From contig JASLYX010000001.1 of NCBI GenBank assembly GCA_030739585.1, positions 1 to 64,000 on the forward strand: 64,000 nt of DNA, written 5' to 3'. Under the pieces are notes generated by a model. That model was given only the letters and a program-made list of their open reading frames with translations. It was not told the DNA's origin and did not search any database. This DNA is from Candidatus Bathyarchaeota archaeon. Its GTDB lineage: Archaea > Thermoproteota > Bathyarchaeia > TCS64. Position numbers and translations under genes: made by a program. This document shows positions 1-14,930 of the stretch, one piece after another; the stretch's first letter is position 1; each line of letters begins with the position of its first letter.

Positions 1-621
1 GCTGATGTTGCCGGTGTAAGTGCTGATGTTGCTGAAGTTCAAACTGGACTAGCAGACGACATCGCCACCGTTCAATCATACTTGGCTGGCGATATCGACG
101 CCGTTGAATCAAGCCTAGGAAGCAACATCGACGCCGTTAAAGCAAGCTTGGCTAGCGATATTGACTCCGCTAAGGCAAACCTAGCTTACGACATCGACGC
201 CGTTAAAGAGGACCTAGCTTACGACATCGACACCCTATCATCAGATCTAACTTGGAAGATAGGAAACGTGAAAACTGATGTCGAGAATCTAAACGCAGAG
301 ATCGTCAACGACCTAACCGATGACATCGCCACCGCAACTTCTGCAGCTAATGCAGCGGGAGCCGCGGTTGATGGGCTGTCAAGCTCACTGGGTGATCTAC
401 AGAGTTCGGTGAGCGACATCGCGGATGTCGCTGACAACGCAGAGTCTGCGGCTAATGCTGCAGCCACTGCTGCCTCCAACGCTGCGAGTGCCGCTGAGAA
501 TGCGAACACTGCTACTAGTGGTTTGACATCTCTGGTCTACGGCGCTATTGGCGCTTCGCTGATAGCTGCCCTTGCGGCAATAGTATCTCTAATGCAAATA
601 AGCAAAAGAATAGCGGGTTAA
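1..621 (+). CDS. hendecad-repeat stalk-like protein, C-terminal membrane anchor (5' end outside window)
   Basis: The frame is open from base 1, so the gene starts upstream of the window and only its last 206 codons are seen. About six tandem 11-residue units, each like LAYDIDAVKED, run from about base 88 to 285. Hydrophobic residues recur at fixed places in each unit, the hendecad pattern known from right-handed coiled coils. An Ala/Ser/Asn-rich helical stretch follows (about 330-520), then a single hydrophobic segment (about 535-600) and a short basic tail, SKRIAG. I infer a surface fibre or stalk anchored by its C-terminus, as in tetrabrachion-like archaeal surface proteins. No catalytic motif is visible. 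It could also be a chemoreceptor-like or phage-fibre-like coiled coil. The coiled coil and anchor are clear; the role is inference. Confidence 0.7.
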   Translation, partial: ADVAGVSADVAEVQTGLADDIATVQSYLAGDIDAVESSLGSNIDAVKASLASDIDSAKANLAYDIDAVKEDLAYDIDTLSSDLTWKIGNVKTDVENLNAEIVNDLTDDIATATSAANAAGAAVDGLSSSLGDLQSSVSDIADVADNAESAANAAATAASNAASAAENANTATSGLTSLVYGAIGASLIAALAAIVSLMQISKRIAG

Positions 622-650
622 TCACCCGTTACTTCCCTTTTATTTTTTTT
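614..650 (+). terminator. hairpin plus T-tract terminator
   Basis: CGGGT and ACCCG form a 5-bp stem around a five-base loop containing the stop codon of the stalk gene. A C/T-rich run with eight consecutive T residues follows. Archaeal termination needs mainly the T-tract, so this is a good 3' end. Confidence 0.6.
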
Positions 651-797
651 ACCCCTTTTCTAGTGGAAACTAGGGTCCGCTGGTAGACACCTGATATCCG
701 TGCAGGGGAACTAGCTGAAAACCGGAATTCACAATCTAGAACATGAACCACAGAGTTTTAACCTATAACTGCCAAGACAGATTGCAGAGGAATCTAT

Positions 798-1097
798 TTG
801 TCCAAACCGGATCCCCCCGGAAATTCACCGCAATCCTTCGATCTCACCGCTCTGGACCTTGACCACCTCCTAGGCCTCTTCATAAACATTCTAACCGCCA
901 AGGCCTGGCAGTATATGGGCCTCCGCCTTATCCCCGGCAAAGAGGAGGCTGAGAAGGATCTCGTGAAGGCAGCCGCTGCAATAGATAGCCTCTCAGTGAT
1001 GGTGGACAAGCTGGCGCCGCGCCTTCCTGAGGAGGACCTAGCTGGCCTTAGGGCAATACTGACCGACCTCCAGATAAACTACGCCAGACAATCATGA
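798..1097 (+). CDS. DUF1844-like small helical protein
   Basis: This 99-residue protein of unknown function resembles DUF1844: a hydrophobic helix near residues 20-40 (HLLGLFINILTAKAWQYMGL), a charged segment, then an amphipathic helix pair ending in a DL-x-NYA motif, the usual shape of that short family. The start is TTG at 798, chosen because a Shine-Dalgarno-like GAGGAA sits a few bases upstream and no ATG lies in a suitable place. A minus-strand frame over the same bases is a shadow. DUF1844 is best known from bacteria, so the assignment from shape alone should be treated as moderate. It stands alone between a terminator and a convergent gene. Confidence 0.6.
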   Translation: MSKPDPPGNSPQSFDLTALDLDHLLGLFINILTAKAWQYMGLRLIPGKEEAEKDLVKAAAAIDSLSVMVDKLAPRLPEEDLAGLRAILTDLQINYARQS

Positions 1098-1194
1098 CTA
1101 CCTTCTGAGGAGATTTCATGAGCGTCTCTTACGAATACTGAGCATGATAGAGCTCTTGGACTTGGTTCTAGATCTAATATTGAAATATGGGGGC

Positions 1195-2619
1195 TTAGAC
1201 GTTTCTGACTTTGTCCAGGTAGAGCTTTCTCCTATAGAGGACCCCCATCACGTCGGCAGCCCTTTTTGGTGTGATGTATACTGGGATCTGTGCGGACTCC
1301 ATGATCATGGCGGACTCGCGCTCCACGTCAGCTGAGGGGTCTATCACGATCACTGGTTTCCCATACTTTTGGTATCCGGTGATGAGCTGACCGTTGAGCC
1401 ATTGGTAGATGCCTGCGAGGTCCTCTGGAGGGACGTCGGGGAACATTGTCTTGAGGATGGCGGTGCCAAGACCGATGGTGACCAGACCGTGTATCTCCGG
1501 CTGCTTCAGCACCATCCCTGGGACATTCAGGAAGCTGTTCATGTTCAGGGTAGCAGTGAGGTCCACCGGGTTCTTTGGGTTCCCAAAGGCTGGGATTACG
1601 CCGAGAATCTCTTCTTGTGCCTCTTCACAAAGGATAGGGACCTTCATCCCATTCTGTATGAGGCGGTCCGCAGTTTCCACGGCCACGCCACCACTGTTGG
1701 AGACGATGCCGATGTTGGGGCCTAGGGGGAGGTCACAGTATAAAAGCCCTTTAACGTAGTCGAACATCTCCACGGCATCTCCTGCCCTGATTACACCCGC
1801 CTGCTTGAAGGCTGCGTCGTAGATTTGGTCGCTCCCCGCGATACTCCCGGTGTGACTCGCAGCGGCCTTGGAGCCTTCATCTGTGACGCCCACCTTGATG
1901 ACCACAATGGGCTTCTCTGGGGTGATCTCCCTAGCCTCCTCGTACCACCTACGCCCGGCTTTGAGCCCTTCAATATACATCGCGATGACCTTAGTGTCCG
2001 GGTCTTCCCCGAAATATTTCAGGTACTCCCAGCCCTTCAGGTCGGATTCGTTGCCGCTGCTCACAAACTTTCCCACCCCGACTCCCAGGGCGGAGGCTCG
2101 AAGATATAGCTGGAGGCCGTAGCCGCCGCTCTGGCTTATGAACGCGACATCCCCAGACTCATGGAGGAAGGGGATCATGAGGGCACTAAGCTTACCGGGG
2201 CTGCTGGTGACTCCCATACAGTTGGGACCGATGAATCTGAGTTTCCCTTGAGAGATCTCCTGGATCTGCCTGATAGCATTCTGCCCTTCTTCCCCGGTCT
2301 CCCCAAATCCACTTGTAATGACGACAACCCCCTTAATCTCCTTCGCGACTATATCCTCAAAGACGCTGGGTACGAAGCGGGCAGGTACCACAACGAGGGC
2401 GGAGTCGATCTCGCCTGGGATCTCCCGAACATTTCCGTAGCATTTTAGCCCGAGGATCTCTTCGGCCTTGGGATTTACGGGGTAGATCTTCCCCTCAAAG
2501 CCGCTTTTCTGGATCGCCGCCAGGAGCATGTTCCCCCACTTGAAGGGATCCGTGGATGCTCCTACGACGGCAACACTCTTAGCCATAAGTATCTTATCAA
2601 GGGCCTCCCTAGCGTCCAT
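1195..2619 (-). CDS. ADP-forming acyl-CoA synthetase, alpha subunit
   Basis: The 474-residue protein matches the alpha subunit of ADP-forming acetyl/acyl-CoA synthetase, which turns acyl-CoA, ADP and phosphate into acid, CoA and ATP. It is the main substrate-level ATP step of peptide-fermenting archaea. An N-terminal CoA-binding Rossmann domain carries VVGAS (residues 18-22), a succinyl-CoA-synthetase-like domain carries GPNCMG (131-136) and ISQSGGYG (161-168), and the motif ASHTGSIAGSD (254-264) holds the conserved phosphorylated His256. Length is typical for a separate alpha subunit (about 460). No ATP-grasp beta subunit lies nearby, so it must be encoded elsewhere. The neighbour at 2793 is divergent. 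Confidence 0.9.
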   Translation of the reverse strand: MDAREALDKILMAKSVAVVGASTDPFKWGNMLLAAIQKSGFEGKIYPVNPKAEEILGLKCYGNVREIPGEIDSALVVVPARFVPSVFEDIVAKEIKGVVVITSGFGETGEEGQNAIRQIQEISQGKLRFIGPNCMGVTSSPGKLSALMIPFLHESGDVAFISQSGGYGLQLYLRASALGVGVGKFVSSGNESDLKGWEYLKYFGEDPDTKVIAMYIEGLKAGRRWYEEAREITPEKPIVVIKVGVTDEGSKAAASHTGSIAGSDQIYDAAFKQAGVIRAGDAVEMFDYVKGLLYCDLPLGPNIGIVSNSGGVAVETADRLIQNGMKVPILCEEAQEEILGVIPAFGNPKNPVDLTATLNMNSFLNVPGMVLKQPEIHGLVTIGLGTAILKTMFPDVPPEDLAGIYQWLNGQLITGYQKYGKPVIVIDPSADVERESAMIMESAQIPVYITPKRAADVMGVLYRRKLYLDKVRNV

Positions 2620-2792
2620 CCTTAGAACCTCTGAGACGAATCATCACAAAGCACCGTACCTCTATATAAATTTGGGTGACCAAGACTCCGTTACCAGCGA
2701 CAATAGGGGAGCAACAGCCAGCCGCGCGCTGCCATCATGCAACCTATTTAATAACAGTTCTTTCTAGATGATGGAACATCTGAGGAGATTAG

Positions 2793-3179
2793 ATGGTTAA
2801 CTTCCTAGGCTTGGATTATTGGACCAAGGTAGAGGGTATCGCGAATGGGGACGAAGAGTTCAAGATCAAGTCCCGTGCTTTTGTTGCAAGCTTCACTTTC
2901 AACGTCACTGATAGCTCCGTCCTCCCGGCAATCTACATGAAATTCGATGACGGGAAGGTCACAGAAGTCAGGGAGCTCGCGGAGGGTGAGAGGACCGACT
3001 TCACGTTGGAGGGGCCCTATGACATTTGGATCCAAGTAAATAAGGGGGAGATTGAGGGCGCCAACGCGATCATGACTCGCCAACTCCAGTTCAAGGGGAA
3101 CGTGAGCGAGATCATCCGCTACAGCAAAGCGTTCCTGAGGCTCTTCCAGGTGATGCAACAGGTCCCCGTTGAGTACTAA
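2793..3179 (+). CDS. SCP2 sterol-carrier-domain protein
   Basis: This 128-residue stand-alone protein has the shape of the SCP2 lipid-binding fold: a strand-rich first half with FTFNVTD and YMKFDDGKV, the D-x-W segment DIWIQVN, and a helical C-terminal part with a hydrophobic face (SKAFLRLFQVMQQVP). In bacteria and archaea these small proteins bind acyl chains or other hydrophobic ligands, with ligands mostly unknown. Start ATG 2793 has GAGGAG five bases upstream. It is transcribed divergently from the acyl-CoA synthetase alpha gene, which could fit acyl-chain metabolism, but that link is only positional. Confidence 0.75.
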   Translation: MVNFLGLDYWTKVEGIANGDEEFKIKSRAFVASFTFNVTDSSVLPAIYMKFDDGKVTEVRELAEGERTDFTLEGPYDIWIQVNKGEIEGANAIMTRQLQFKGNVSEIIRYSKAFLRLFQVMQQVPVEY

Positions 3180-3282
3180 GTCAACATTCTGCAATATCCT
3201 TATTTTATCATCATGTCAGTCAGGCTGATCTTCAGGCCTTACCACTATTTCTTTTAAATCCTGAATCATGGCATAGGGATAT

Positions 3283-3427
3283 TCATCCTTTCAGTGCCTC
3301 TCTGTAGAATTCATAGACCCAATATCTTGGTGGGAATGTCGACTGCGATGACCAGTTTCCCTGTATCCCTAACGGCGTAGAGAACGTAAAGGATCTCTTT
3401 AAACTATTCACCGGGCTGATGGTGTTG
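3283..3427 (-). pseudogene. possible decayed gene fragment in the 3180-3541 gap
   Basis: The 360-base gap before fbp has no intact gene. On the minus strand one frame gives a protein-like stretch, KEILYVLYAVRDTG followed by KLVIAVDIPTK, with a stop just upstream. A neighbouring frame then gives YWVYEFYREALKG and a stop. This looks like the tail of a gene broken by a stop and a frameshift. I do not recognise the family, and chance cannot be excluded. Confidence 0.25.
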
Positions 3428-3541
3428 CCGTAGAATCAGGTATTCTCCTTCAGGTCCCACTGATGAAGTTCGCGAATTATCACTAGTATTCTCTTTATAT
3501 CTGGAAAATAGTTTATCATGACTATAGGGGGGAGATTCTGA

Positions 3542-4426
3542 ATGAACCTAGAAACACACCTCAAAGGACAAGACGAGGACCTTAGGCGGGTGATCCTCAA
3601 AATCAGCAAAGTGGCTAAGACAATTAGGAGGGGATTCAGCACTAGACAGGGTTCGTTGGCCTCCTCTAACGTCTACGGCGAGCATCAGGTTGCCATGGAC
3701 GTCTGGGCCGACGAGCTGCTGATCTCCGGGCTGAGGGACGCTGGGCTAGTAAGACGCGTCGCCTCTGAGGAGCAGCCTGAAGTATTGACTTTTCACAACT
3801 CCACTTCGAACCTAGAAGTAACCCTCGATCCCCTAGATGGCTCCTCCCTCATCGGCGTCAACCTCGCCGTGGGAACTATCGTAGGGATCTACAGGGGAAA
3901 CCTCCTTAGCCCCGGGAACGAGCTGCTCGGAGCGATATATGTCCTCTATGGACCTGTCACTACACTCACATATTCCCTGCGAAAGGGGGTCCACGAGTTC
4001 GCCCTGGATGACCTGGGAGATTTTGTCCTGCAGGAGGAATACGTCACTATCTCTGAAGGGAAGATATACTCTCCGGGTGCTTTAAGGAGGGACTACCTTC
4101 CGACCCATAGGGGATTTATCGAGGAGCTTGAGGATGATGGATATAAGCTGAGGTATAGCGGCTCCTTCGTGGCTGACGTCCATCAGATACTGCACAAAGG
4201 GGGAGTCTTCACATATCCCTCTTTCACCGGCAACAAGAATGGTAAGCTAAGGCTACTCTTCGAGGCAATCCCTATGAGTTTCATCATTTCCCAGGCTGGG
4301 GGCGCTGCAAGTGATGGCTATCGAGACCTGCTTTCAATCAAGCCCGAGGCGATCTCCCAGCTTGTTCCCGTTTACATTGGCGGAAAGAGAGAAATAGAGT
4401 TAATCATGAGAATGAACGAGGGATGA
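3542..4426 (+). CDS. fbp: fructose-1,6-bisphosphatase, class I type
   Basis: The enzyme hydrolyses fructose 1,6-bisphosphate to fructose 6-phosphate in gluconeogenesis. The 294-residue sequence has the metal- and phosphate-binding motif LDPLDGSS (95-102), YVLYGP (133-138), and the sugar-phosphate-binding segment KLRLLFEAIPMSF (235-247), all class I FBPase signatures. It lacks the features of the bifunctional FBP aldolase/phosphatase that most archaea use. It is shorter than typical class I enzymes (about 330), mainly at the N-terminal allosteric region. Start ATG 3542 is preceded by GGGGGGAGAT. It overlaps the aldolase gene by four bases (ATGA), so translation is probably coupled. Confidence 0.87.
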   Translation: MNLETHLKGQDEDLRRVILKISKVAKTIRRGFSTRQGSLASSNVYGEHQVAMDVWADELLISGLRDAGLVRRVASEEQPEVLTFHNSTSNLEVTLDPLDGSSLIGVNLAVGTIVGIYRGNLLSPGNELLGAIYVLYGPVTTLTYSLRKGVHEFALDDLGDFVLQEEYVTISEGKIYSPGALRRDYLPTHRGFIEELEDDGYKLRYSGSFVADVHQILHKGGVFTYPSFTGNKNGKLRLLFEAIPMSFIISQAGGAASDGYRDLLSIKPEAISQLVPVYIGGKREIELIMRMNEG

Positions 4427-5559
4427 TCAGGATGAACGAGCCAATACCTGGTAATTTACTGTTCAACAGTCTACGGGATAAGGATGCGATAATCCTCGCG
4501 TCAAACATCAGGATCCCGGCTGGTCTCCTTGAGGGGCTATTTAGGGCGGCAAAGAATTTAGATTCAGCTATAATCTTCGAGATCGCCCGATCGGAGTGTA
4601 ACATCGGTAGGGGTTACACAGGTATGGTGCCAAATGAGTACGCCGAGGCGGTAAAGATGGCCGCGGAGGAGGTGGATTTCGACGTATGGGCGCTCCATGC
4701 CGATCACATCACCTTGAAGGAGGGTTCCCCCAAAGATATAGCCGAGACGGAGAAGCTTGTTGAAGCTCAGATTGACGCAGGGTTCACCTCGTTCGCCATA
4801 GATGCCTCGTATCTCTTCAACCATCAGGGCGGGAACGTTCGAGAGGAGCTGGCTCGGAACATCGATGTCACCACGGAGCTCGCTAAGCACATCGAGTCTC
4901 GAATGAGGGGGAGACCCTTTGGTCTTGAAGTGGAGGTCGGGGAGATAGGGAAGAAGGACTTCCAGGGTCAGGTAGTTACAACTCCTGAAGAGGCAGTTAC
5001 ATTCGTAAGAGCGTTGAACGAAAATGACGTTTACCCCCAAGTGCTGGCTATTGCCAACGGAGCCTCCCACGGGAACGTCTATGACACGCACGGAAACATG
5101 ATGGAGCAGGTCTCCATTGACATACCCCAGACGAAGGCCGTCGCTAGGGCCCTGAGGGAAAACTATCTGGACGTGAGGATCGCCCAGCACGGCATAACCG
5201 GCACACCCCGGGAACTCATAAAAAGAGTCTTCCCCCGAGGGGATATAATCAAGGGCAACGTCGCCACCTTTTGGCAGAACCTAGTCCTGAACACCTACAA
5301 GGTGTATCAACCTGAGCTGTACCAGGATATCTATAACTGGACCCTCGAAACATATAGATCGAAGGACCCGGAAATCTCGGATAAAGAGCTCTTCGGGAAG
5401 AACGTGAAATACGCCGTGGGGGAGTTCCGGGAGCGCATTGACGATGTAGACGAGGAGACCGTAGACGCCATTGAGGCTCTTTCCTACGGGGAGTGCTTGA
5501 TGTTCCTCAACGCGTTTGGCTCCAAGGGGACTGCTTCCATCGTCAGGAAAATGCTGTAG
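4423..5559 (+). CDS. fba: class II fructose-bisphosphate aldolase family
   Basis: Zinc-dependent aldolase joining dihydroxyacetone phosphate and glyceraldehyde 3-phosphate (or a related ketose bisphosphate). Visible metal and active-site motifs in order are HADH (92-95), EVEVGE (169-174), the second zinc histidine in GASHGN (213-218) and QHGITGT (255-261). The N-D-x(3) phosphate-binding loop is not obvious by eye. The start is ATG 4423, overlapping the fbp stop as ATGA; ATG 4432 three codons later is an alternative. Together with fbp, and the triosephosphate isomerase at 45 kb, this gives a bacterial-style gluconeogenic route from triose phosphate to fructose 6-phosphate. Tagatose-bisphosphate specificity cannot be excluded from sequence. 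Confidence 0.87.
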   Translation: MIRMNEPIPGNLLFNSLRDKDAIILASNIRIPAGLLEGLFRAAKNLDSAIIFEIARSECNIGRGYTGMVPNEYAEAVKMAAEEVDFDVWALHADHITLKEGSPKDIAETEKLVEAQIDAGFTSFAIDASYLFNHQGGNVREELARNIDVTTELAKHIESRMRGRPFGLEVEVGEIGKKDFQGQVVTTPEEAVTFVRALNENDVYPQVLAIANGASHGNVYDTHGNMMEQVSIDIPQTKAVARALRENYLDVRIAQHGITGTPRELIKRVFPRGDIIKGNVATFWQNLVLNTYKVYQPELYQDIYNWTLETYRSKDPEISDKELFGKNVKYAVGEFRERIDDVDEETVDAIEALSYGECLMFLNAFGSKGTASIVRKML

Positions 5560-5744
5560 TGTATGTGTTTCCGTAATGCCACCCTATCTTGCTTACTTTA
5601 TTTTGTATTGGTTTCCTAGGCGCGATTCGAAATCCCACAAAAGTTTAGGCCACTACAGATTGCTGTGCCTAGTGCTTGAGGGAGGTTTTGTGAGTATATC
5701 CTCCGGTGTCGTGGCGTGTACTAGATCTTGAATGCTCTTTTTCA

Positions 5745-7205
5745 TTATCCCACTATAAGAGGAGAAATTTCAATCATGTCTTTTCCAACTAGACCCTCTA
5801 TTACTTTTTGCATATTATTATCAGTATAAGCTTCGATAATAATATCGTATATGCCATAAGTTTCTAACACTTTTTCTACTCCTTTTATATTTTCTATTTT
5901 TTCTGTTATATCACTTGTTGATTGAGGTTTTACTTTTAAAAGATAAAATCCTTTTTCCGGACCCACATACTGTGATATTAAAGCAGTCGAAATTTTTACA
6001 TTTATGACATCGTATATTAGATTCCTTATTTCTCGGTTGTATAATTTCCTGTTTAATAACGCTGATCTTCTGACAATTAAATTAATTATTTTCTTAACAT
6101 TACTATCATTAACCTCATAAGTCTTTAATAACTGTTTTATTAAACGTTCACTCACAAATTCTCCTATGTCAAAAATCACTCTATTGTTAAAATCATATTC
6201 CAATTTTTTTTGTGGAATATAACCTTCTGGATTATTCAGTTGTTGTGCCTGGTGGGTGCCAGCTTTCTCCGTTCTGGCAAAATCTGATAGAGGGTGGTTC
6301 CAAGGTATTGGGATCTTTGTGGTGCTCTCAAACGTTTTGTATAGCTTTAGGAAACTCCCTCTATTTTCGCCGGTTTTGATATCTGAATTATCGAGCAAAT
6401 TGGAGCTGAGTTCATAGTGATCCGTGATGCCTGCTCCAGCTCCCAGTCCATAAATGCTCACATGAGGCTCCGAAACTAGCCCTCGCTTGATCACAGCCTT
6501 AGTGTTTCCTAAAGCATTTCCGTAATCGTTATGAAAATGGGCCGATAACTCTTTATCGGTTATTCTATTGGCAAATTCAAACATCTCAATGGCTTCGTCT
6601 TCCTCTAGTAGACCAGCGGTATCGGGTAAACTGATGTTCGTTGCACCTGCTCTGTCCGTTTCTTCTATAATCTTTTTGAGATGGTAGAGATGATCCTCAA
6701 CACTTTTACTCTTTGAGAAGAACCTTGATGCGTCTTCTAGAACCGCTCTCCTATATTTGAAGCCGCATTCTTTTAGGACGTCCAACGATTCAGTAAACCG
6801 TGTGACGGTATCCTCAACTGATATACCTCTTAATTTATTATTTCTATGCTCTTCTGATATGGCTAAATAAACTCCACATCCATCAACTTCCATTTTCTGA
6901 GCGATTTCTACATCTTCTCTGAGAGCCCTGCACTGAACAATTATAATTGAATCCTTGGTGCCTCCCTGAATGGTTTTCAGAACATCCCTCATCTCTCCGA
7001 TACTTTTCCCTCTCTGAGGATATGCGATTGAAAATTCTATTCTGGGCGTCCCCAATTCAACTAAGGCTGATCCGATGGTCTCGAATTTATCTAAAGTGTA
7101 ATATACACTCGAATTAAGTTCACCCTCTCTTAAAGTTGTATCTAGAATATTGATTTTTTTCCCTGCCATATCATATACCCCTGAGGCCAACACTACGTAG
7201 CCCAT
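5745..7205 (-). CDS. homocitrate/2-isopropylmalate synthase-like enzyme with C-terminal Lrp-type (RAM) domain
   Basis: This is an HMGL-like TIM-barrel acyltransferase of 486 residues. DTTLREGE (22-29) carries the catalytic Arg and metal Asp, and HFHNDYGN (223-230) the metal histidines. Where LeuA/homocitrate synthases have GxGERxGN, this protein reads GLGAGAGI (253-260), so Glu and Arg are missing and the substrate is uncertain. A helical linker (about 340-400) leads into a C-terminal AsnC/Lrp-type ligand-binding domain (about 418-486), known from archaeal homocitrate synthases as the RAM domain. The 3' third (about 5745-6240, residues 325-486) is strikingly AT-rich compared with the rest. 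The start could be ATG 7205 or the internal ATG at 7169, which matches family N-termini better. The aminotransferase upstream on the same strand suits an alpha-aminoadipate or leucine route. Confidence 0.75.
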   Translation of the reverse strand: MGYVVLASGVYDMAGKKINILDTTLREGELNSSVYYTLDKFETIGSALVELGTPRIEFSIAYPQRGKSIGEMRDVLKTIQGGTKDSIIIVQCRALREDVEIAQKMEVDGCGVYLAISEEHRNNKLRGISVEDTVTRFTESLDVLKECGFKYRRAVLEDASRFFSKSKSVEDHLYHLKKIIEETDRAGATNISLPDTAGLLEEDEAIEMFEFANRITDKELSAHFHNDYGNALGNTKAVIKRGLVSEPHVSIYGLGAGAGITDHYELSSNLLDNSDIKTGENRGSFLKLYKTFESTTKIPIPWNHPLSDFARTEKAGTHQAQQLNNPEGYIPQKKLEYDFNNRVIFDIGEFVSERLIKQLLKTYEVNDSNVKKIINLIVRRSALLNRKLYNREIRNLIYDVINVKISTALISQYVGPEKGFYLLKVKPQSTSDITEKIENIKGVEKVLETYGIYDIIIEAYTDNNMQKVIEGLVGKDMIEISPLIVG

Positions 7206-7445
7206 CTTGTTTTCGTAGTTTTAATAAAGATATCGGTAAAGATGATTGATTATCCTCAAACAATCGTTGAACTAATCAGTTTTTCGTAATAACTTTACAA
7301 AACCCTCACAGGGTAAATGTCCCATTCCTTATTTTCTGGATATACCACGCCCCTGATTGATATAGGCGAAGCTGATCTGCTCTTAATATGCTCAAGAAAC
7401 TCAGAAGCATTACACTCGCGAAAAAATAGGGGTGGGGAGAGGCTC

Positions 7446-8663
7446 CTAAATTGCCTTCTTCAGCAGACTGCCCAGGATCTGGATACCTTCTACAATATCC
7501 GCCTCAGAGGGGTGACTGTAGTTGAGCCGCATATAGTTGTGCACCGGCTCGGCAAAAAAGTTGGAGCCCGGGATGTAGGCGACGCCATTCTCCACAGCAT
7601 TCTTCAAGATCTTTGTGGTGTTTACGTGCTCCGGCATCTTCACCCAGAGGAAAAGCCCCCCTTTTGGGTCGTTCCACTCCGTCTCCTCTGGAAAGTTGGT
7701 TGCCATTGTTTCAAGCATTAGATCCCTCTTTCGTCTGTATATCTCTGTCACCTTTGATATTTGCCTCTCCACGTCCCCTCTCTTGAACAACTGTGTGGCC
7801 AAATATTGGGTGATCCCATCGTTGCAGATGCTAACATTACTCTTCGCCTCCACCATCTTTGTGATGAACTCACTGGGGGCCACAAGCCACCCGATCCTCA
7901 TCCCTGGGGACACGATCTTGCTAAAGGTACTCGTGTACATCGTCCTTCCCGCCCTGTCCAGCCCCATGATCGGTGGTGGCATCTCCCCCTCAAAGCTAAT
8001 GTAACCATAGGGATTATCTTCCAGGATGATGAAGTTGTGCTCCTCGGCTAGCTCCACAATCCTCCTCCGCCTTTCCTCCGTCAGCATTGTGCTCGTGGGA
8101 TTCTGGAACGAAGGTACCAGGTAGAGGAGCTTGGCCCATTTCCCCTCCCCCTCAATCTCCTCAAGCTCTGCCTCAAGGGCCGTAATGTTCATCCCACCAC
8201 CATCGATCTCCACTGACCTGATCTCTGGATTAAATTGCCTGAACGCTCCTAGAGCTGAGAGATACGTGGGAGCGCCCACGATAACGACATCTCCGGGATC
8301 CAAAAATACTCTCGCCACAAGATCCAGCGCCTGCTGGGACCCTGTTGTTATCATGATCTCTCTTTCAGGGTCGGCCTCAATCTCGTGGCCGGCCATGAAC
8401 TTTGAGAGCTCCTCCCTGAGCTCCGGAAATCCCACTGTGCCCCCGTACTGGAGCATCGTCTTCCAGTCCTCCTCAGAGGCTTCAGCCAAGATCTCGCTGA
8501 CCTCCTCCCCTGGCAGAGACGGTGGATCATACATGCCTCCCGTGAACCCAATGATCTTTTTCCCCTGCTTCGCCATATTCATCGCGGCGAGGACTACCCG
8601 GGTAATGATCCCAGGCTCGAAGGTTTTTCCCAGCTCCGAATAAAAATTTTCAGCATCAACCAT
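7446..8663 (-). CDS. PLP-dependent aminotransferase, LysN/ARO8-like (class I/II)
   Basis: The 405-residue fold-type I aminotransferase has the class I/II order: TTGSQQALD (106-114), N188-P-T, EDNPYG with Asp216 and Tyr219 that hold the cofactor, Lys249 in STFSKIVSPGMRIGW for the Schiff base, and the C-terminal substrate Arg in NYMRLNY. The best match by eye is the 2-aminoadipate/aromatic aminotransferase group (LysN, ARO8), which transfers the amino group between 2-oxo acids and glutamate with broad range. The start at 8663 is the first Met. It lies 240 bases upstream of the synthase-like gene on the same strand, so a shared amino-acid pathway is plausible. No other lysine-pathway genes (lysW, X, Y, Z) are in the window. 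Confidence 0.85.
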   Translation of the reverse strand: MVDAENFYSELGKTFEPGIITRVVLAAMNMAKQGKKIIGFTGGMYDPPSLPGEEVSEILAEASEEDWKTMLQYGGTVGFPELREELSKFMAGHEIEADPEREIMITTGSQQALDLVARVFLDPGDVVIVGAPTYLSALGAFRQFNPEIRSVEIDGGGMNITALEAELEEIEGEGKWAKLLYLVPSFQNPTSTMLTEERRRRIVELAEEHNFIILEDNPYGYISFEGEMPPPIMGLDRAGRTMYTSTFSKIVSPGMRIGWLVAPSEFITKMVEAKSNVSICNDGITQYLATQLFKRGDVERQISKVTEIYRRKRDLMLETMATNFPEETEWNDPKGGLFLWVKMPEHVNTTKILKNAVENGVAYIPGSNFFAEPVHNYMRLNYSHPSEADIVEGIQILGSLLKKAI

Positions 8664-8878
8664 TTAGATACTAGCTGTAGGCTTCAAAAGGTGTATAACT
8701 ATTTTGCGACTAATCAAGGATGGCAAAAAGCCGTCTTCTTCCTAGGGAGAACGAATGAACGAGGAATTGAATCGGCTGCACGGGAGCCGATGACTATACA
8801 AGGAGTCAAGCAGATGAAGCCATACCTAATCTCGTGTTGGAAGGGCCAGTTTACTTCGGACTTTGAGATAGGCGAACT

Positions 8879-9240
8879 TTATGGCCCTTCGGTGCCCCTG
8901 ATGGGGCTCGTAGACTCCTCCGCTGCCGTTCTCCTCTTAGGGAGGTCCCCTGTTATAGGCGACAATTCATACCTCTCAAACATCTGCATGATGGGGCACT
9001 CCTCACCCTTTTCGCGTACACCACTTTAGACCCCTTGAGGGATATGTGACATAGGATCCCATGCAGGTCCTCTAGTGGAACGCCTACCATCTAGGCCCCG
9101 GCGCGCGTGAAGTTACTGTCCTTGGTTCTCCTCACGGCTAACTTTGGCCTAATTCATCTCATCCTCAGTGACCGATTTTCCATCAGCATTGTATTTAAGC
9201 TCATATTCAGACGATTCATGAGAACTTCTACCAGAGAATT
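8879..9240 (-). pseudogene. possible decayed unknown gene in the 8664-9469 gap
   Basis: The 800-base gap has no convincing intact gene. On the minus strand, protein-like pieces follow one another in changing frames: YELKYNADGKSVTEDEMN and a stop, then VGVPLEDLHGILCHISLKGS running to VVYAKR, then GEECPIMQMFERYELSPITG continuing to a stop near 8879. Two frame changes and two stops would be needed to join them. I do not recognise the family. The plus-strand frame across the same bases looks like a shadow. Confidence 0.35.
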
Positions 9241-9469
9241 ACTGATTTAACCTAGATCATCTTCTCAATTGACTTCAAAAGAAGCCTAATGTATCCAAGC
9301 TCCCCGTGCACGCGAAAAAAAGGCTAATCTTCAGCTAATTCAACAAAAAGCGCCTAAACAAGTCCCCTGTTGTGAGTGATTCAAGTAGTGGGCTTTACTA
9401 GAGGCCTGAGCACCAAAGATATCAATAGGTCTCCGTTATTCAAGGGTAACCACGGGATGGATTTTTGAT

Positions 9470-10396
9470 ATGTTATCTAAGATCGGGATTGAGGTGGTGG
9501 ACGCTCATGCCCACTATTTCACCGCTAGCACGCTTAAGGCTTGGAGCCTAAGGGGGAGGAACCGGGAGAGCTTTGAGAATCGGACCCGCTCCAGGACGGA
9601 CATGACCTCGATCGAGCTCCCCGACGAGTCCACAGACGTTGCCCAGCAGTGGGTGGACGAGATGGACCGATACGGAATCACTGCGATGGGATTCATGGTT
9701 GGCGCTGACGCATATGACGAGTTCCTTGAGACAAAGGCAAGGTTCCCCGGGCGCTTCATGGGATACGCCAACATCAATCCTGAAGACCCTGATGCAGCCG
9801 AGAAAGTTGGAAAGGTGTTCCGTGACGGTCTCCAGGGAATAAAACTCTACCCTTCATCATGGCCAGAGCTCCACGCCTATGATGCCGCCTGCTATAGTGT
9901 TTATGAGGCGGCATTGAAGCATCGGTTACCAATCTTTCTTCACTTCGGCATCACTATTGGGGGCCAGGCCGACCTCCGCCATGGAAATCCCTTGGATATC
10001 CAGGTTCCATCCCGTGACTTTCCCGATCTGAACTTTATAATCGCCCACTTCGGGGCCGGGTTTTTCAGGGAGCTCCTGCTACTCCAGTATCAGGCTGACA
10101 ATATCTATATGGATTCCAGCGGCTCCAACTCATGGATGAGATATCTCCCATATGACCTCGACATCAGAAAGATATTTGAGAGAGCTATCACTGCTGGGGG
10201 TGCTAAGAAGGTAATCTATGGAACCGACTCCTCTTTCTTCCCCCGGGGTTATAGGATCAACATCTTAGAGCAGCAGTACGAGGCTGTTAAATCGCTGAGC
10301 GAGGGACCTGACGCCATCGCGAGCACTGAGGACATCGACGGTATATTCCGGGGTAACATTCTGGGGCTCACTGGCTTTATCCCCAAGAAGCTATAA
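9470..10396 (+). CDS. amidohydrolase family 2 (TIM-barrel metal-dependent hydrolase)
   Basis: This 308-residue metal hydrolase of the amidohydrolase-2 family resembles gamma-resorcylate/ACMS decarboxylase relatives. The metal ligands are visible: DAHAH (Asp11, His13, His15), His158 in FLHFG, His193 in IIAHFGAG and Asp253 in YGTDSS. Family members hydrolyse or decarboxylate cyclic or aromatic acids; the substrate here cannot be read from sequence. The next gene downstream on the same strand is a D-aminoacylase 360 bases away, so a peptide or amino-acid catabolic role is possible. Start: ATG 9470 within TTTTGATATG; no strong Shine-Dalgarno, and TTTTTGATATG could be an overlapping TATA-like sequence. 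Confidence 0.82.
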   Translation: MLSKIGIEVVDAHAHYFTASTLKAWSLRGRNRESFENRTRSRTDMTSIELPDESTDVAQQWVDEMDRYGITAMGFMVGADAYDEFLETKARFPGRFMGYANINPEDPDAAEKVGKVFRDGLQGIKLYPSSWPELHAYDAACYSVYEAALKHRLPIFLHFGITIGGQADLRHGNPLDIQVPSRDFPDLNFIIAHFGAGFFRELLLLQYQADNIYMDSSGSNSWMRYLPYDLDIRKIFERAITAGGAKKVIYGTDSSFFPRGYRINILEQQYEAVKSLSEGPDAIASTEDIDGIFRGNILGLTGFIPKKL

Positions 10397-10466
10397 GCCT
10401 CATTCTCTCAAGAAAAGGATATCATCCACTGCCTAGAACTGATCGTGGGTCTATCCCCACCGTACC

Positions 10467-10483
10467 GTCTCTACCGTAGAGAC
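10467..10483. repeat. perfect 8-bp inverted repeat in the 10397-10755 gap
   Basis: GTCTCTAC and GTAGAGAC are perfect reverse complements around one central C. The weaker pair GTGGG/CCCAC sits just upstream (10446-10460). The 360-base gap otherwise shows no gene. The repeat could be a protein-binding palindrome or part of the transcript end of the amidohydrolase gene; no T-tract follows. Confidence 0.4.
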
Positions 10484-10755
10484 GCCATCCCCCCTCAGGG
10501 AGTCTCCGTCTTAGCCCTCGGCGAGGAAATTCTGTATGTCTTCAACAGGAAGGTGATCTGAGTGTTAGTGAACAGTCTGATGCTAGCTCGCGTAACAGGA
10601 AAAAGCAGACTCTTATCAAGACAACAAGTTGGAGTGAGATTTCCGGACAGAATACTGCGTTCGTGAATGATCGATTCTCTTTCTTTCACCTTTAGACCTC
10701 TGAGCCCCGAAAAACGATTTAAGACCTGACTAAGAATCTAATACGGGGAATCCAG

Positions 10756-12333
10756 ATGGATCTAGACTTTCTCTTCGTGAATACTAAGGTGATTGATGGG
10801 GCTGGGAACCCCTGGTTCAGGGCTGACGTAGGTATAAAGGGGGATAGAATCAAGGCGGTGGGATCTCTATCAGGGGCTAACTCCGAGAGAACCATCTATG
10901 CCGGCGGGCTCGTGGTGGCCCCTGGCTTTATCGATATTCACAGCCACTCAGACTATAATGTCCTCATTGACCCTAGAGTGGAGAGTAAGGTTCGCCAGGG
11001 GGTTACCACCGAGGTAGTGGGAAACTGCGGGAGCTCCGCCGCTCCCATGAACGCCTGCGTCAAGGCATATAGGGAGAGATACATGAGGGCACGCCTAGGC
11101 GACGACTTCCATTTCAGCTGGGAGTCTATGGGAGACTACCTTGGGATCATCGACGCCTCGGGAGCCTCTTTTAACGTAGTCTCTCTCGTAGGTCAGGGTA
11201 CTATCCGTCAGAACGTGATGAGATACGAGGACAGGGAGCCCACAAAGTCGGAGCTAGATGATATGAAAGCGCTTGTTGCGGGGGCAATGGAGGACGGGGC
11301 TTGGGGGATGTCTACAGGCCTAATCTACACCCCCAGTGCTTATGCGGGGACCACTGAGATAATTGAGCTCACGAAGGTTATCAGAGGTTATAGCGGGGTT
11401 TATTTCAGTCACATTCGTGGTGAGGGGGAAACACTCCTTGACGCGGTGAACGAGGCAATCCATATCGGTAAGGAAGCTAACGTACCCGTTCAAATAGCCC
11501 ACTTCAAGGCGTCCGGGAAACCTCACTGGGGGAAGACTGTAGACTCCTTGAGGCTCGTAGCCGAGGGCCGCGAAGCAGGAATTGATGTCACATTTGACCA
11601 ATACCCCTACATCGCTTCAAGCACGGGTCTCGCAGCATACATGCCTCACTGGGCCCAGGAGGGAGGAGCCCATAGACTCTTGGAGCGCCTCAAGAACCCA
11701 GAGATTAGGGAGAAAATCCGGGAGGACCAGGCCGTTATCTATAGGAACTGGGATATCATCATGGTGGCATCCGCAAAGAACCACCCCGAGTACGAGGGTA
11801 AACGCATTAGCGAGATCGCAGAGATTGAGGGGAAAGAGCCCTACGAAGCGGTTTTCGACCTTCTCCTAAACGAGGACGCTCAGGTCTCTGTGGTAAGCTT
11901 CGGGATGTCCGAGGACGACGTTCGTCGCGTCATGAGGAGTCCACACGGGATGGTGGGCTCCGACGGGAGCGCCGTCGCCTCCTGGGGTATTCTGGGGAAG
12001 GGAAAGCCCCATCCCCGATTCTACGGCACCTTCCCTAGAGTTATTGGTCACTACGTGAGGGAGAGGGTCCTGACCCTCCAGGAGGCGATCCGGAAGATGA
12101 CCTCCGCCCCGGCCCTACGCCTTGGCCTTAGGGATCGGGGGCTCCTCAGGGAGGATTTCAAGGCTGATCTCACCGTTTTCGATCCAGAGAATGTGAATGA
12201 TGAGGCCACGTTTGTTAATCCGCATAGGTTTGCTTCTGGTATACCCTATGTCATGGTGAATGGGGAACTTGTGGTGGATGGGGGAAAACACACAGGGGCC
12301 CTCCCCGGGAGGGTTCTGAGGAAATCCCACTGA
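10756..12333 (+). CDS. N-acyl-D-amino-acid deacylase (D-aminoacylase) family
   Basis: The 525-residue protein belongs to the D-aminoacylase branch of the amidohydrolases, which releases free D-amino acids from N-acyl-D-amino acids. An N-terminal beta-sandwich strand opens the protein, then FIDIHSHSD (Asp60, His62, His64, Asp66), the family Cys in GNCGSSAAP (Cys91), STGLIY, FSHIRGEG, a histidine in QIAHFKASGKPHWGK, and a late DGSAVAS with the catalytic Asp. The C-terminal sandwich part ends in ADLTVFDPENV. ATG 10756 is preceded by GGGGAATCCAG. With the M55 D-aminopeptidase at 60 kb and the peptide importer at 30-37 kb this suggests use of D-amino-acid-containing peptides. Dihydroorotase-like activity is less likely. 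Confidence 0.87.
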   Translation: MDLDFLFVNTKVIDGAGNPWFRADVGIKGDRIKAVGSLSGANSERTIYAGGLVVAPGFIDIHSHSDYNVLIDPRVESKVRQGVTTEVVGNCGSSAAPMNACVKAYRERYMRARLGDDFHFSWESMGDYLGIIDASGASFNVVSLVGQGTIRQNVMRYEDREPTKSELDDMKALVAGAMEDGAWGMSTGLIYTPSAYAGTTEIIELTKVIRGYSGVYFSHIRGEGETLLDAVNEAIHIGKEANVPVQIAHFKASGKPHWGKTVDSLRLVAEGREAGIDVTFDQYPYIASSTGLAAYMPHWAQEGGAHRLLERLKNPEIREKIREDQAVIYRNWDIIMVASAKNHPEYEGKRISEIAEIEGKEPYEAVFDLLLNEDAQVSVVSFGMSEDDVRRVMRSPHGMVGSDGSAVASWGILGKGKPHPRFYGTFPRVIGHYVRERVLTLQEAIRKMTSAPALRLGLRDRGLLREDFKADLTVFDPENVNDEATFVNPHRFASGIPYVMVNGELVVDGGKHTGALPGRVLRKSH

Positions 12334-12367
12334 GTCATCTATTTGCTCTATTGAATAATAAAGTAGG

Positions 12368-12826
12368 TCAGAACATATCGTCTTGCATTCGAAAGTCCTC
12401 TAAAACTGTGGTTAGGACTACATGGGTGTTTGTTCTTTCTACGTAAGGCATAGTGAGGAGTTTTTTGGTGAATTCACTGAGGGCGCTCCGGGTCCTGAAC
12501 TTTGCGATCACCATCGCGTCGGTTTCCCCAGTAATATCATAAACAGCACAGACGTTTGGGATCTTTGAGATCTCCTCATCCGTCTCCAAGAGCTTTCCTT
12601 TTGAAACGATGATCTCAATTATCACCGTGAGCTCGTAGCCAAGCCTCTCGTGATCAAGTCGGACCGAGTAGTCCTGGATAATCCCCCCCGACTCAAGCCT
12701 CTGGACGTGATTGATCACCGTTGCGGGTGAAACTCCTATGGCCTTGGCGAGCTCCCTGAAGGATCTTTTAGAGTCTACTAGTAGCTCCTTGAGGAGCTTC
12801 GTGTCGATTTCGTCCAATGCAAACAT
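12368..12826 (-). CDS. Lrp/AsnC family transcriptional regulator
   Basis: This 152-residue regulator has an N-terminal winged helix-turn-helix (about residues 5-52, with SFRELAKAIGVSPATVINHV) and a C-terminal RAM/ligand-binding domain (about 68-140) containing the usual D-x-TGETDAMVIAKFRTR stretch. Such proteins form octamers or dimers that sense amino acids and act on amino-acid metabolism genes. It is divergent from glutamine synthetase across a 360-base AT-rich region, so glnA is the obvious target candidate, and self-regulation is common. A TATA-like TTTTATAT (12851-12858, read on the minus strand) lies about 27 bp from the start. GGTGG also sits just before the ATG. Confidence 0.9.
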   Translation of the reverse strand: MFALDEIDTKLLKELLVDSKRSFRELAKAIGVSPATVINHVQRLESGGIIQDYSVRLDHERLGYELTVIIEIIVSKGKLLETDEEISKIPNVCAVYDITGETDAMVIAKFRTRSALSEFTKKLLTMPYVERTNTHVVLTTVLEDFRMQDDMF

Positions 12827-12850
12827 ATTTCCACCTTCTTTTCATGTGTG

Positions 12851-12858
12851 TTTTATAT
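12851..12858 (-). promoter_or_regulatory. TATA box of the lrp-like gene
   Basis: On the minus strand this reads ATATAAAA, centred about 28 bp from the start codon at 12826. The transcript would have a leader of only a few bases. Confidence 0.45.
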
Positions 12859-12924
12859 CTACATTATGTTGAACAGTTGTATATGAATTTACCTTTTTGC
12901 TTAATATATATTTATCAAAGAAAC

Positions 12925-12968
12925 AACTTCATGCACACCCGTAAGCAACAAACTTCATACACTTCATT
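12925..12968 (+). repeat. direct repeats in the lrp-glnA intergenic region
   Basis: AACTTCATGCAC (12925-12936) and AACTTCATACAC (12951-12962) differ by one base and are spaced 26 bp apart. A third partial copy, ACTTCATT, starts at 12961. The placement between a divergent Lrp-type regulator and glnA makes them candidate operator sites, but the region is AT-rich and the function is not shown. Confidence 0.35.
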
Positions 12969-13153
12969 GAGGTTATTCAAGGTTTTTTTCGTTTATCATT
13001 TATGCATATAAATCGCCCCCCTTGGAATCCTCAATATTTCCTTAAGTCTAAACTGAATTTGTTTAGAAGAACGCCATTATGCCTTATAATACTAAACAAA
13101 TATATAGTGTTTTACACTGAAAGCAATCATATGTATCGTTTTCACTCATAAAT

Positions 13154-13162
13154 GTTAATATA
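13154..13162 (+). promoter_or_regulatory. TATA box of glnA
   Basis: GTTAATATA is centred about 30 bp ahead of ATG 13189, the spacing expected for a leaderless or near-leaderless transcript. A second TATA-like CAAATATATAG at about 13097-13107 could drive a longer transcript. Confidence 0.5.
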
Positions 13163-13188
13163 TGAGAAGTGCTTTGGTCAAAGCCACT

Positions 13189-14571
13189 ATGGTTGATTTC
13201 AAGTTGACCCAGGGAGAAGCTGTCGAGGCCATCGACAGCCTACTAAAAAAGTGGGATATTAAATACATCCGGCTTATTGTAGTGGACCTTGACGGCAAAC
13301 CACGGGCCATGCTCATCCCCGAGTACGAAATGGAGTTTGCCCTCACCTTCGGGATAGGCTTTGACGGCTCCAGTATTGCTGGGTTCAGAGATGTGAACGA
13401 GAGCGACCTTGTTGCGCATCCCGATCCCTCGACGTTCCTAGTTCCCATGTGGGAGACCCCTGGCATCGCCACAATGTTTTGCTATATCGGAAAACCCGAT
13501 GGACAACCCTTCGAGGGGGATCCTAGGGGACTCCTCAAGAAGACTGTTTTAGAAATCGAGAACGAAGGCTACGGCTACAATACAGGTCCAGAACTCGAAT
13601 ATTTTTACATATCCGAGGAGAATGGAGGATACGCACCTTTCGGCTCAGGAGGCTACTTCGATCTCCCTCCTCTAGACCCTACCGAGGAAATCAAGATGGA
13701 GACTATGATGTGCCTCGAGGCTGCAGGCTTTCAGCTAGACAAAGTCCACCATGAAGTAGCCCAGGGCCAGCAGGAGATCAACTTCCGCTACTCAGACGCT
13801 CTCAAGACAGCAGATAATGTGCTCCTCTACAAGTTGTGCGTGAAGACTATCGCCCAAAAGCATGGCAAGCTCGCTACCTTCATGCCTAAGCCCTTCTGGG
13901 GTGTGAATGGGAGTGGGTGCCACGTCCACCAAAGTCTCTTGGATCTGGAGACTGGGACAAACGCTTTCTCGGGCTCAGTAGAAACTGGAGGCCTCTCGGA
14001 GATGGCTATTAGGTACATCGGGGGTATCTTGAGCCATGCCCGTGGCATGTCTCTCATAGTGGCCCCACTGGTCAACTCCTACAAACGTCTCGTGCCCCAT
14101 TACGAGGCTCCAGTCTATATTGCTTGGGGATTCATGAATCGGTCGGCCCTTGTCCGGGTGCCCAGGTATCCTGAGGGGATGGATAAGACTGCTAGGATCG
14201 AATATCGCCACCCCGACCCCTCCTGTAACCCCTACCTCGCTGCGGTTGCCATGATCAACGCGGGAATGGACGGTGTAAAGAACAAAATCGAGCCTCCCGA
14301 ACCCCACTCCGACAACGTGTATGAATTCTCCAAGGCGGAGCTCGAAAAGCTGAACATAGAGATGCTCCCTGAGCACCTTGGAGAAGCTATCGACTCCTTC
14401 CTGAAAGATCCGGTAATCACCGAAGCCCTAGGGGATTATCTTACTGAGAGTCTGGTCAAATTGAAGACGAAGGAGTTCCTTGATTACGGGGAGAACACGG
14501 GAAAAAGCTGGGCGGAGAGCCGGCCCGGGATCACCCAGTGGGAGCTAGACCGATATCTAGTGAGCTGCTAA
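13189..14571 (+). CDS. glnA: glutamine synthetase, type I
   Basis: The enzyme makes glutamine from glutamate, ammonia and ATP. From ATG 13189 it is 460 residues, the usual GSI length. Visible signatures are FDGSSIAGF in the N-terminal domain, the Glu-rich GPELEYFY metal region, NGSGCHVHQSL (ATP/ammonia region), VNSYKRLVPHYEAPVY, and RIEYRHPDPSCNPYLA near the C-terminus. I see no NLYDLP adenylylation site, so it is likely a GSI-alpha type regulated by feedback or by transcription. An upstream ATG at 13162 would add nine residues but lies within the likely TATA box, so ATG 13189 is preferred. It is divergent from an Lrp-type regulator. Confidence 0.93.
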   Translation: MVDFKLTQGEAVEAIDSLLKKWDIKYIRLIVVDLDGKPRAMLIPEYEMEFALTFGIGFDGSSIAGFRDVNESDLVAHPDPSTFLVPMWETPGIATMFCYIGKPDGQPFEGDPRGLLKKTVLEIENEGYGYNTGPELEYFYISEENGGYAPFGSGGYFDLPPLDPTEEIKMETMMCLEAAGFQLDKVHHEVAQGQQEINFRYSDALKTADNVLLYKLCVKTIAQKHGKLATFMPKPFWGVNGSGCHVHQSLLDLETGTNAFSGSVETGGLSEMAIRYIGGILSHARGMSLIVAPLVNSYKRLVPHYEAPVYIAWGFMNRSALVRVPRYPEGMDKTARIEYRHPDPSCNPYLAAVAMINAGMDGVKNKIEPPEPHSDNVYEFSKAELEKLNIEMLPEHLGEAIDSFLKDPVITEALGDYLTESLVKLKTKEFLDYGENTGKSWAESRPGITQWELDRYLVSC

Positions 14572-14573
14572 TC

Positions 14574-14930
14574 CTAAAGGTCCATGTAGCTCCTCCCTAT
14601 CTCGTTTAGCTTCTCTAGGCGTGCATCCGGTTAGCTGCTCATCCTCTTACAACATCTATCCAGGGATACTTTTATGATCTTTTTCATGATTTTAGGTGAG
14701 ACGGGCCGATAGAGGTACCGGTATCTCCCCAAGGCCGATGAGTGGCTCTTCCCTGTTGGCGAGCCCCTTATCTACGAGGTTCCGGAGGACCCACTGGGCC
14801 GTGGACCTGCTCTTCCCAAGCCTTTCCGCGATCTCGGACCATGGAAGATTTTCTTGTCAAGACCGCTCAATATGCCTCAAACTTTGGTTCTAACTCCAAG
14901 AGTGTGTCGCATGATCTCTATTGCGCTCAT
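14574..14930 (-). pseudogene. decayed winged-helix transcriptional regulator
   Basis: Joining minus-strand frames gives a recognisable winged-helix protein. Pieces in order are MSAIEIMRHTLGVRTKV, an in-frame TGA, GILSGLDKKIF, a frame change, WSEIAERLGKSRSTAQWVLR continuing to NLVDKGLANREEPLIGLG, a frame change, RYRYLYRPVSPKIMKKIIKV continuing to DRCCKRM, then PDARLEKLNEIGRSYMDL and a stop. The recognition helix and the G-R-Y-x-Y-x-Y-R-P wing strand are typical of small archaeal ArsR/BlaI/TrmB-like regulators; the intact gene at 59542 has a similar HRVYRP wing. At least one stop and two to three frameshifts make it non-functional. It starts just upstream of thioredoxin, divergently. Confidence 0.65.

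Follow-up and report, generated by a model that had tools for sequence, protein, structure and literature searches.

A Probably Acquired, RAM-Tailed, LysS-Like Condensing Enzyme with a Remodelled Acyl-CoA Site in a Bathyarchaeia Genome

Relationship to Described Synthases

The closest described system is the homocitrate synthase of Sulfolobus acidocaldarius, whose catalytic part was crystallised without its RAM domain (PDB 6ktq) and which, by the title of that entry, carries a RAM tail. The gene studied here occupies positions 5745-7205 of the first 64,000 nucleotides of contig JASLYX010000001.1 of Candidatus Bathyarchaeota archaeon (assembly GCA_030739585.1); the whole of this stretch is called the window and the gene the window gene (L and G numbers label homologue loci and genomes, respectively). 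Its product shares with the Sulfolobus enzyme the TIM barrel, the lid/linker and the RAM tail, as well as the Asp/HxH metal site, residues of the Arg153/Ser192/His248 type and the catalytic His and Tyr; it differs, at about 25% identity, in having Leu for the Gln of LREGEQ, GAGAG for GxGER and Gln91/Val155 for His/Thr. Methylthioalkylmalate and isopropylmalate synthases (6e1j and 3rmj) have the same barrel and lid and the residues of a Claisen-type condensation, and their structural Z-scores are tied with that of the homocitrate synthase; to our knowledge they have no RAM tail. According to PMC12961565, isopropylmalate synthases have Glu at the position of Arg153, unlike the window enzyme, and according to PMC11532901 Gln93 of methylthioalkylmalate synthase (MAMS), which the window enzyme replaces with Leu, is essential. 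Within the same genome, a Re-citrate-synthase-like protein belongs to the same barrel family and has Arg at position 153; unlike the window enzyme, it keeps the Gln and GxGER. The window gene is itself a member of an uncharacterised clade defined by LREGEL and GxG[DAT]RNG (Bathyarchaeota, Nitrososphaerota, Marsarchaeota and two bacterial contigs), in which it is the sole row without Arg-Asn (1/45).

We propose, with a probability of about 0.55, that the window gene encodes an acquired, RAM-tailed, LysS-like enzyme that works like a homocitrate synthase. Such an enzyme would most likely condense 2-oxoglutarate with acetyl-CoA to give homocitrate. That reaction would open an aminoadipate lysine pathway of the LysW type, the remaining genes of which lie elsewhere in the genome; the RAM tail is probably a sensor of lysine or a related amino acid. 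With acyl-CoA-side residues (the Gln of LREGEQ and the Glu of GxGER) replaced in the clade, the chemistry may differ in detail. Should this hold, the window gene would be a candidate for the lysine-synthesis step missing at the start of the pathway in this Bathyarchaeia genome, and would show that acquisition of a distantly related enzyme can close a gap in a pathway.

Domain Architecture and Predicted Fold

Only the minus strand carries an open reading frame here, the plus strand being rich in stops (the initial annotation named no strand), and the features discussed below are collected in table 1. A single Pfam domain is found in the gene, the HMGL-like PF00682 (115.5 bits against a cut-off of 29, residues 17-279). 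The AlphaFold model of the protein, built on an alignment of 33 sequences that includes the window protein itself, has a mean pLDDT of 89.6 and a pTM of 0.85, and its top Foldseek match is 6ktq (TM-score 0.70 by query and 0.85 by target, ~25% identity). VIA-align Z-scores are tied among 6e1j (37.7), 6ktq (37.1), 3rmj (37.1) and 4ov9 (36.7), so structure cannot discriminate between these synthases.

Table 1. Positions in the window of the window gene, its domains and motifs, and adjoining features
Feature	Position	Strand	Remarks
Inferred acquired segment	5568..7420	.	Homology with G001, G002 and G016 ends at 5548-5567 on one side; G001 homology resumes at 7421
Window gene, DRE-TIM type condensing enzyme (TIM barrel, lid/linker, RAM tail)	5745..7205	-	486 aa + stop
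HMGL-like TIM barrel and lid start, residues 17-312	6270..7157	-	PF00682; GC about 0.42
RAM (Lrp/AsnC ligand-binding) domain, about residues 415-486	5748..5963	-	Profile searches, model
AT-rich last third, residues 326-486	5748..6230	-	GC 0.275, GC3 0.193
LREGEL, residues 25-30	7116..7133	-	Arg26 kept; Leu replaces Gln of canonical LREGEQ
Arg153, homocitrate-synthase-type substrate residue	6747..6749	-	Arg in 45/45 clade rows
HFHNDYGN, residues 223-230, metal-binding HxH	6516..6539	-	Alignment
GLGAGAGI, residues 253-260, replacing GxGER	6426..6449	-	Other 44 clade rows: G-x-G-[D/A/T]-R-N-G
AGTHQ...GYIP, residues 315-331	6213..6263	-	His318 and Tyr329 kept; spacing as MAMS His388/Tyr399
Class I aminotransferase with distant similarity to the 2-aminoadipate aminotransferase LysN	7446..8663	-	Neighbour

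The initial annotation had placed an Lrp-type RAM domain in the last third of the gene, and family, profile and fold-model evidence agree that this region is RAM-like. Pfam AsnC_trans_reg matches 15/18 clade tails at E ≤ 0.1 (the window gene's own tail at E 0.0012 and 19.1 bits, under the cut-off of 25); a profile built from the 18 clade tails retrieves solved Lrp/AsnC proteins from the PDB (best E 1.2e-6); and the last 80 residues, modelled alone, adopt a beta-alpha-beta-beta-alpha-beta fold (pLDDT 79). NCBIfam gives a weak LysM match at residues 420-467 (19.9 bits, cut-off 180).

Scores against curated models of whole enzymes fall far under their cut-offs: 125.3 bits against 413.55 for homocitrate synthase (TIGR02146), 146.7 against 517, 70.6 against 598.7 and 43.4 against 450 for the NCBIfam 2-isopropylmalate/citramalate models, and 38.9 against 229 (NF006049) and 35.5 against 286 (TIGR03217) for 4-hydroxy-2-oxovalerate aldolase. 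The AGAG loop presumably resembles that of pyruvate aldolases. Among the features of homocitrate synthases, the protein has the Asp and HxH metal ligands, the His/Tyr pair of the lid and the archaeal-type C-terminal RAM domain, and at position 153 it has Arg in place of the isopropylmalate/citramalate-type Glu; the homocitrate synthase motifs LR[DE]GxQ and GxGER read LREGEL and GLGAGAG. Because the curated model and these two motifs fail, we do not file the protein under the homocitrate synthase family.

Active-Site Residues

To compare residues, homologues were drawn from a scan of GTDB species contigs from which the best 80 of 548 loci were kept (52 were read, and the 28 weaker ones set aside). 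The clade is defined as the scan loci with E ≤ 1e-66 together with the window gene and has at least 45 rows; the alignment excludes two partial genes (L072 and L075) and one locus in the wrong frame (L104), and the trees further exclude L092 and L100, the two of 11 comparison rows that have no RAM domain.

Eight residues (D22, R26, E157, T196, H223, H225, H318 and Y329) are each invariant across 45/45 clade rows and 11/11 comparison rows, and DTTLREGE (residues 22-29) and HFHNDYGN (residues 223-230), both named in the initial annotation, are indeed present in the translation. GLGAGAGI had been presented as a departure from the GLGER of relatives; the motif stands at residues 253-260 and canonical relatives do read GxGER, but the nearest relatives read G-[LI]-G-[AT]-R-N-G-I, and much of the change is therefore not peculiar to the window gene. 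The Glu of GxGER is replaced by Asp (39/45), Ala (4/45) or Thr (2/45) in the clade, compared with Glu in all 11 comparison rows, and the Gln of LREGEQ by Leu (44/45) or Ile (1/45), compared with Gln in 11/11. Arg-Asn follows the former position in 44/45 clade rows, the AGAG of the window gene being the only exception. The alignment thus presents the motif change as mostly a clade trait, with the Glu and the Gln replaced in 45/45 rows.

Six residues of MAMS were tested in PMC11532901, and their equivalents by motif and spacing are Arg26, Leu30, Glu157, Thr196, His318 and Tyr329. Five of the six are kept in 45/45 clade rows; the sixth corresponds to Gln93, whose replacement by Ala lost activity and by Asn gave no detectable activity (PMC11532901). 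The clade dispenses, in other words, with two active-site residues conserved in 11 comparison synthases, one of which, the Gln, is essential in a plant relative, and judged by these alignments the acyl-CoA site of the window enzyme, which we regard as putative, is remodelled.

For the substrate side, Table 1 of PMC12961565 lists five residues hypothesised to split homocitrate synthases (His, Arg, Thr, Ser, His) from isopropylmalate synthases (Leu, Glu, Ser, Asn, Glu). In alignment columns that we assigned ourselves, the window gene has Gln91, Arg153, Val155, Ser192 and His248 at these positions (3/5 homocitrate-type), while 35/45 clade rows are homocitrate-type at all five. Arg153 and Ser192 are retained in 45/45; the combination of Gln91 and Val155 is found in the window gene, L033 and L037 only (of 45 clade rows). 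The LeuA and CimA-type proteins of the host genome have Glu at the position of Arg153.

Distribution and Gene Neighbourhoods of the Clade

In the barrel tree (a quick method, no bootstrap), L033 pairs with the window gene (SH-aLRT 92), L037 joins next (97), and all three fall inside the 45-row clade (100). Archaeal relatives among the best 80 of 548 loci come from Bathyarchaeota, many Nitrososphaerota (Aigarchaeota-type, Caldarchaeum and Nitrososphaerales) and one Marsarchaeota; the bacterial ones are L033 from Patescibacteria (47% identity) and a truncated gene, L075, from 'Hebobacteria' (55% over residues 9-206). L033 (7995-9419) is a lone AT-rich clade member in a 0.6 Mb Patescibacteria genome, where it lies, by eye, downstream of a release-factor-like gene; no aconitase-family match was found in that genome, and among 379 genomes sampled from its phylum the two matches at E ≤ 1e-20 are L033's own and a distant one (33%) in G460. 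On the 'Hebobacteria' contig the clade gene (L075:246-905) is cut at about residue 206 and is followed, by eye, by a ThiF-like gene. In the titles and opening abstract lines of the literature matches listed for homocitrate synthases with a RAM domain or from these archaeal groups, there was nothing on the clade.

Gene neighbourhoods bear on whether the clade, or just the subgroup of window gene, L033 and L037, might be a neofunctionalised condensing enzyme acting on another acyl-CoA or 2-oxo acid. This reading is prompted by changes on both the acyl-CoA side (Leu30 and residues 256-258) and the substrate side (Gln91 and Val155): Leu/Ile30 and the loss of Glu256 set all 45 clade rows apart from the 11 comparison rows, Gln91 with Val155 marks exactly that three-member subgroup, and the Gln is essential in MAMS (PMC11532901). 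At seven archaeal loci (L062, L063, L065, L068, L074, L076 and L086), moreover, the next same-strand ORF clusters with L034's HacA/LeuC-family protein (an assignment by BLAST clustering rather than family scan, with L063 cut by a contig end), an arrangement compatible with leucine and lysine alike. Against this reading stand the retention of Arg153 and Ser192 in every clade row and the order of genes at L034 itself, where an M20 peptidase, a LysM-like Lrp regulator (166.6 bits, cut-off 180) and a small ORF are followed by the clade gene and a HacA/LeuC-family and LeuD-family pair. On balance we consider a change of substrate somewhat unlikely. About as doubtful is the broader proposal that this unnamed, widespread, mainly archaeal clade, with its rebuilt acyl-CoA site and retained substrate Arg, runs a different condensation, of which the window enzyme would be the furthest changed representative.

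Base Composition and the Age of the RAM Tail

The whole window gene is GC-poor relative to its surroundings, with a GC of 0.37 and a GC3 of 0.33 compared with a mean GC3 of 0.59 (sd 0.06, minimum 0.45) in the 50 other window ORFs of at least 150 aa. The initial annotation had remarked on an AT-rich last third, and this holds: GC falls from 0.42 to 0.28 along the gene, residues 1-325 having a GC of 0.421 and a GC3 of 0.400. The within-gene GC difference of 0.145 makes it an outlier against 44 clade homologues (mean 0.023, sd 0.018, maximum 0.059; z 6.7; for GC3, z 4.2). GC and GC3 along the gene locate the step near codons 300-325, which means that the AT-rich part spans the end of the lid, the linker and the RAM domain and not the RAM domain alone.

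It had been suggested from this composition that the gene is a recombinant, the barrel of one source fused to an AT-rich RAM tail of another. Besides the GC step, this is favoured by the free tail tree (again a quick method), in which the window gene has a long branch and lies outside the remaining clade rows, between them and the comparison rows, albeit with a support of 48. Trees constrained to the barrel-like groupings nevertheless raise the likelihood of the tail alignment: by 9.7 units for the window gene with L033 (AU p 0.81), by 4.1 with L033 and L037 (AU p 0.66) and by 10.1 with L033, L037 and L034-L036 (AU p 0.85), indicating that the free search was not optimal. The tail data are in no significant conflict with the barrel grouping. 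The tail of the window gene is 0.29 identical to that of L033 at a barrel identity of 0.55, inside the range of 595 clade pairs with barrel identities of 0.50-0.62 (mean tail identity 0.36, sd 0.05, minimum 0.22), and the RAM region is occupied by at least 72 residues in 45/45 clade rows. A swapped regulatory domain is thus not supported by the tree tests and the pairwise divergence, although the GC step and the base-of-clade placement point the other way, and we regard a recombinant origin as highly improbable; as far as alignments and trees can tell, the RAM tail is an old part of the enzyme.

The long tail branch (1.32, against 0.53 for the barrel), together with the Gln, Glu, Arg and Asn missing from active-site motifs, could also be what is left by decay, in which case the protein would be catalytically dead or decaying and at most an amino-acid-binding regulator. 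However, the frame is fully open, the metal ligands and the catalytic His and Tyr are all retained, and the tail of L033, the nearest relative among the best 80 of 548 loci, is comparably fast (1.23, against 0.48 for the barrel); we think decay improbable.

Acquisition of the Gene and Variability of the Locus

A foreign origin of the gene is supported by its absence from relatives, its deviant GC and, among the best 80 of 548 loci, nearest relatives that are bacterial or belong to another archaeal family. None of 26 other genomes of the host family has a clade gene (best match 103 bits). In 100 relative genomes and the host's own, matches above 200 bits are confined to G065, G049, G075, G078 and G069 (38-44% identity), which belong to one other family of the same class, and six of 256 genomes of the class carry the gene (at least 553 bits, the next match scoring 223). 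The congener G001 matches the window piecewise over 305-3177 and 7421-14845, with nothing between; it has the syntenic flanks without the gene. Given this and the absence from 26 same-family genomes, the window gene was probably acquired horizontally by this lineage from another microbe.

The inferred segment holds the window gene alone. On its left, a fructose-bisphosphatase/aldolase-like pair (3542-5559) has homologues in G001, G002 and G016; the homology covers both genes and ends at window positions 5559, 5567 and 5548, respectively; in G001 the homologue of the pair lies on contig C38 and the aminotransferase on C50. The fructose-bisphosphatase-like gene of this pair overlaps the class II aldolase-like gene, which scores far under all listed aldolase cut-offs.

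On the right is an aminotransferase whose closest PDB matches are archaeal enzymes named 'aminotransferase II homologue' (336 bits) and 'multiple substrate aminotransferase' (320), with LysN further off (227 bits); as it also occurs in relatives without the window gene, adjacency alone proves nothing. The interval between this gene and an SCP2-like gene (3178-7420) differs in content between G000, G001 and G006: other ORFs occupy it in G001 (by eye, CBS-domain-like and small ORFs) and a third set in G006 (sulfotransferase-like ORFs, by eye). Three different fills make the site variable, and it looks like an insertion hot spot. The repeats around the window gene are short and imperfect only, and the sole tRNA of the window lies at 25552. 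As for carriers, a viral one was rejected (21 pattern matches in one scan of viral_contigs, none encoding a relative), as was a plasmid or phage (214 plasmid and 6 phage records, all under 60% identity). Among the 20 plasmid records listed, the named enzymes are of LeuA, NifV or citramalate synthase type, the others being unannotated there.

Lysine Biosynthesis and Competing Synthases in the Host Genome

The host genome (95% complete) encodes four PF00682 proteins at E ≤ 1e-15: LeuA, a CimA-type protein, the Re-citrate-synthase-like protein and the window protein. LeuA sits in a run that we interpret as LeuA-LeuC-LeuD-LeuB. The third protein, which we take to be a Re-citrate synthase (L158:9585-10964), is a competing candidate for homocitrate synthesis, since it has Arg at 153 and an intact Gln and GxGER; its gene adjoins, by eye, aconitase-like and isocitrate-dehydrogenase-like genes (L158:9585-12887), neighbours that suggest citrate.

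Most of a LysW-type pathway can be read on contig C2, where the order by eye is IlvB, IlvH, IlvC, a HacA/LeuC-family protein, a LeuD/HacB-like protein, a LEU3/homoisocitrate-type dehydrogenase, two ORFs and a LysM-like regulator, followed by LysW, a LysX-type ligase, ArgC/LysY, LysZ, a class III aminotransferase (taken as LysJ) and LysK. Scores above curated cut-offs were obtained for LysW (PF21344, 33.7 bits against 27), the LysX-type ligase (PF22626, 31.9 against 27, and also PF08443), LysZ (NF010662, 285.7 against 194), LysK (TIGR01902, 279.9 against 163.1) and, on at least one model, ArgC/LysY. The HacA/LeuC-family protein scores 554 bits on TIGR01343 (cut-off 386), although the models it passes cannot tell homoaconitase and isopropylmalate isomerase apart, and the dehydrogenase scores 410.4 on TIGR02088 (cut-off 409.8). 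HacA, HacB and HICDH are thus names given by context, the equivalog models being under cut-off and HacB being named without a family scan; TIGR01206, NF041070 and TIGR02144 are the LysW-pathway models that fall under cut-off.

Two other genomes, G004 from the host family and G070 from the host class, have a synthase of 411-417 aa directly upstream of the HacA orthologue with LysW genes nearby (L205:9950-11203 and L206:4365-5600), and these synthases have Leu or Ile, not the homocitrate-type Arg. The host has an IlvC-like gene (by eye) at that place, and a search of its stretch beside HacA for a synthase remnant found none above chance (best E 0.19). With HacA-like and LysW genes present and no synthase adjoining them, the window gene is the strongest of more than one candidate for the first step. 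LysX co-occurs with the gene in 5/6 genomes compared with 26/101 (p 0.004, a value inflated by shared ancestry), and a LysX-type query, itself of the long divergent type, found matches in 0/12 other archaeal clade genomes. LysW clusters can serve arginine as well, and the one on C2 could serve arginine rather than lysine: the congener G002 (70% complete) has a LysW-K cluster and neither the window gene nor a second HacA-family match.

The TIGR01206 search found no LysW, which would suggest that a lysine pathway is absent, a reading overturned by the LysW cluster itself. The LysW in question (L159:13588-13761) is a 57-aa protein ending in EDWGE that the TIGR01206 genome search misses and that passes PF21344; scans leaning on TIGR01206 would score the LysW pathway as absent. 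The LysX-type ligase (L159:13808-15004) is 398 aa long; the nearest relatives of solved structure have 280 aa.
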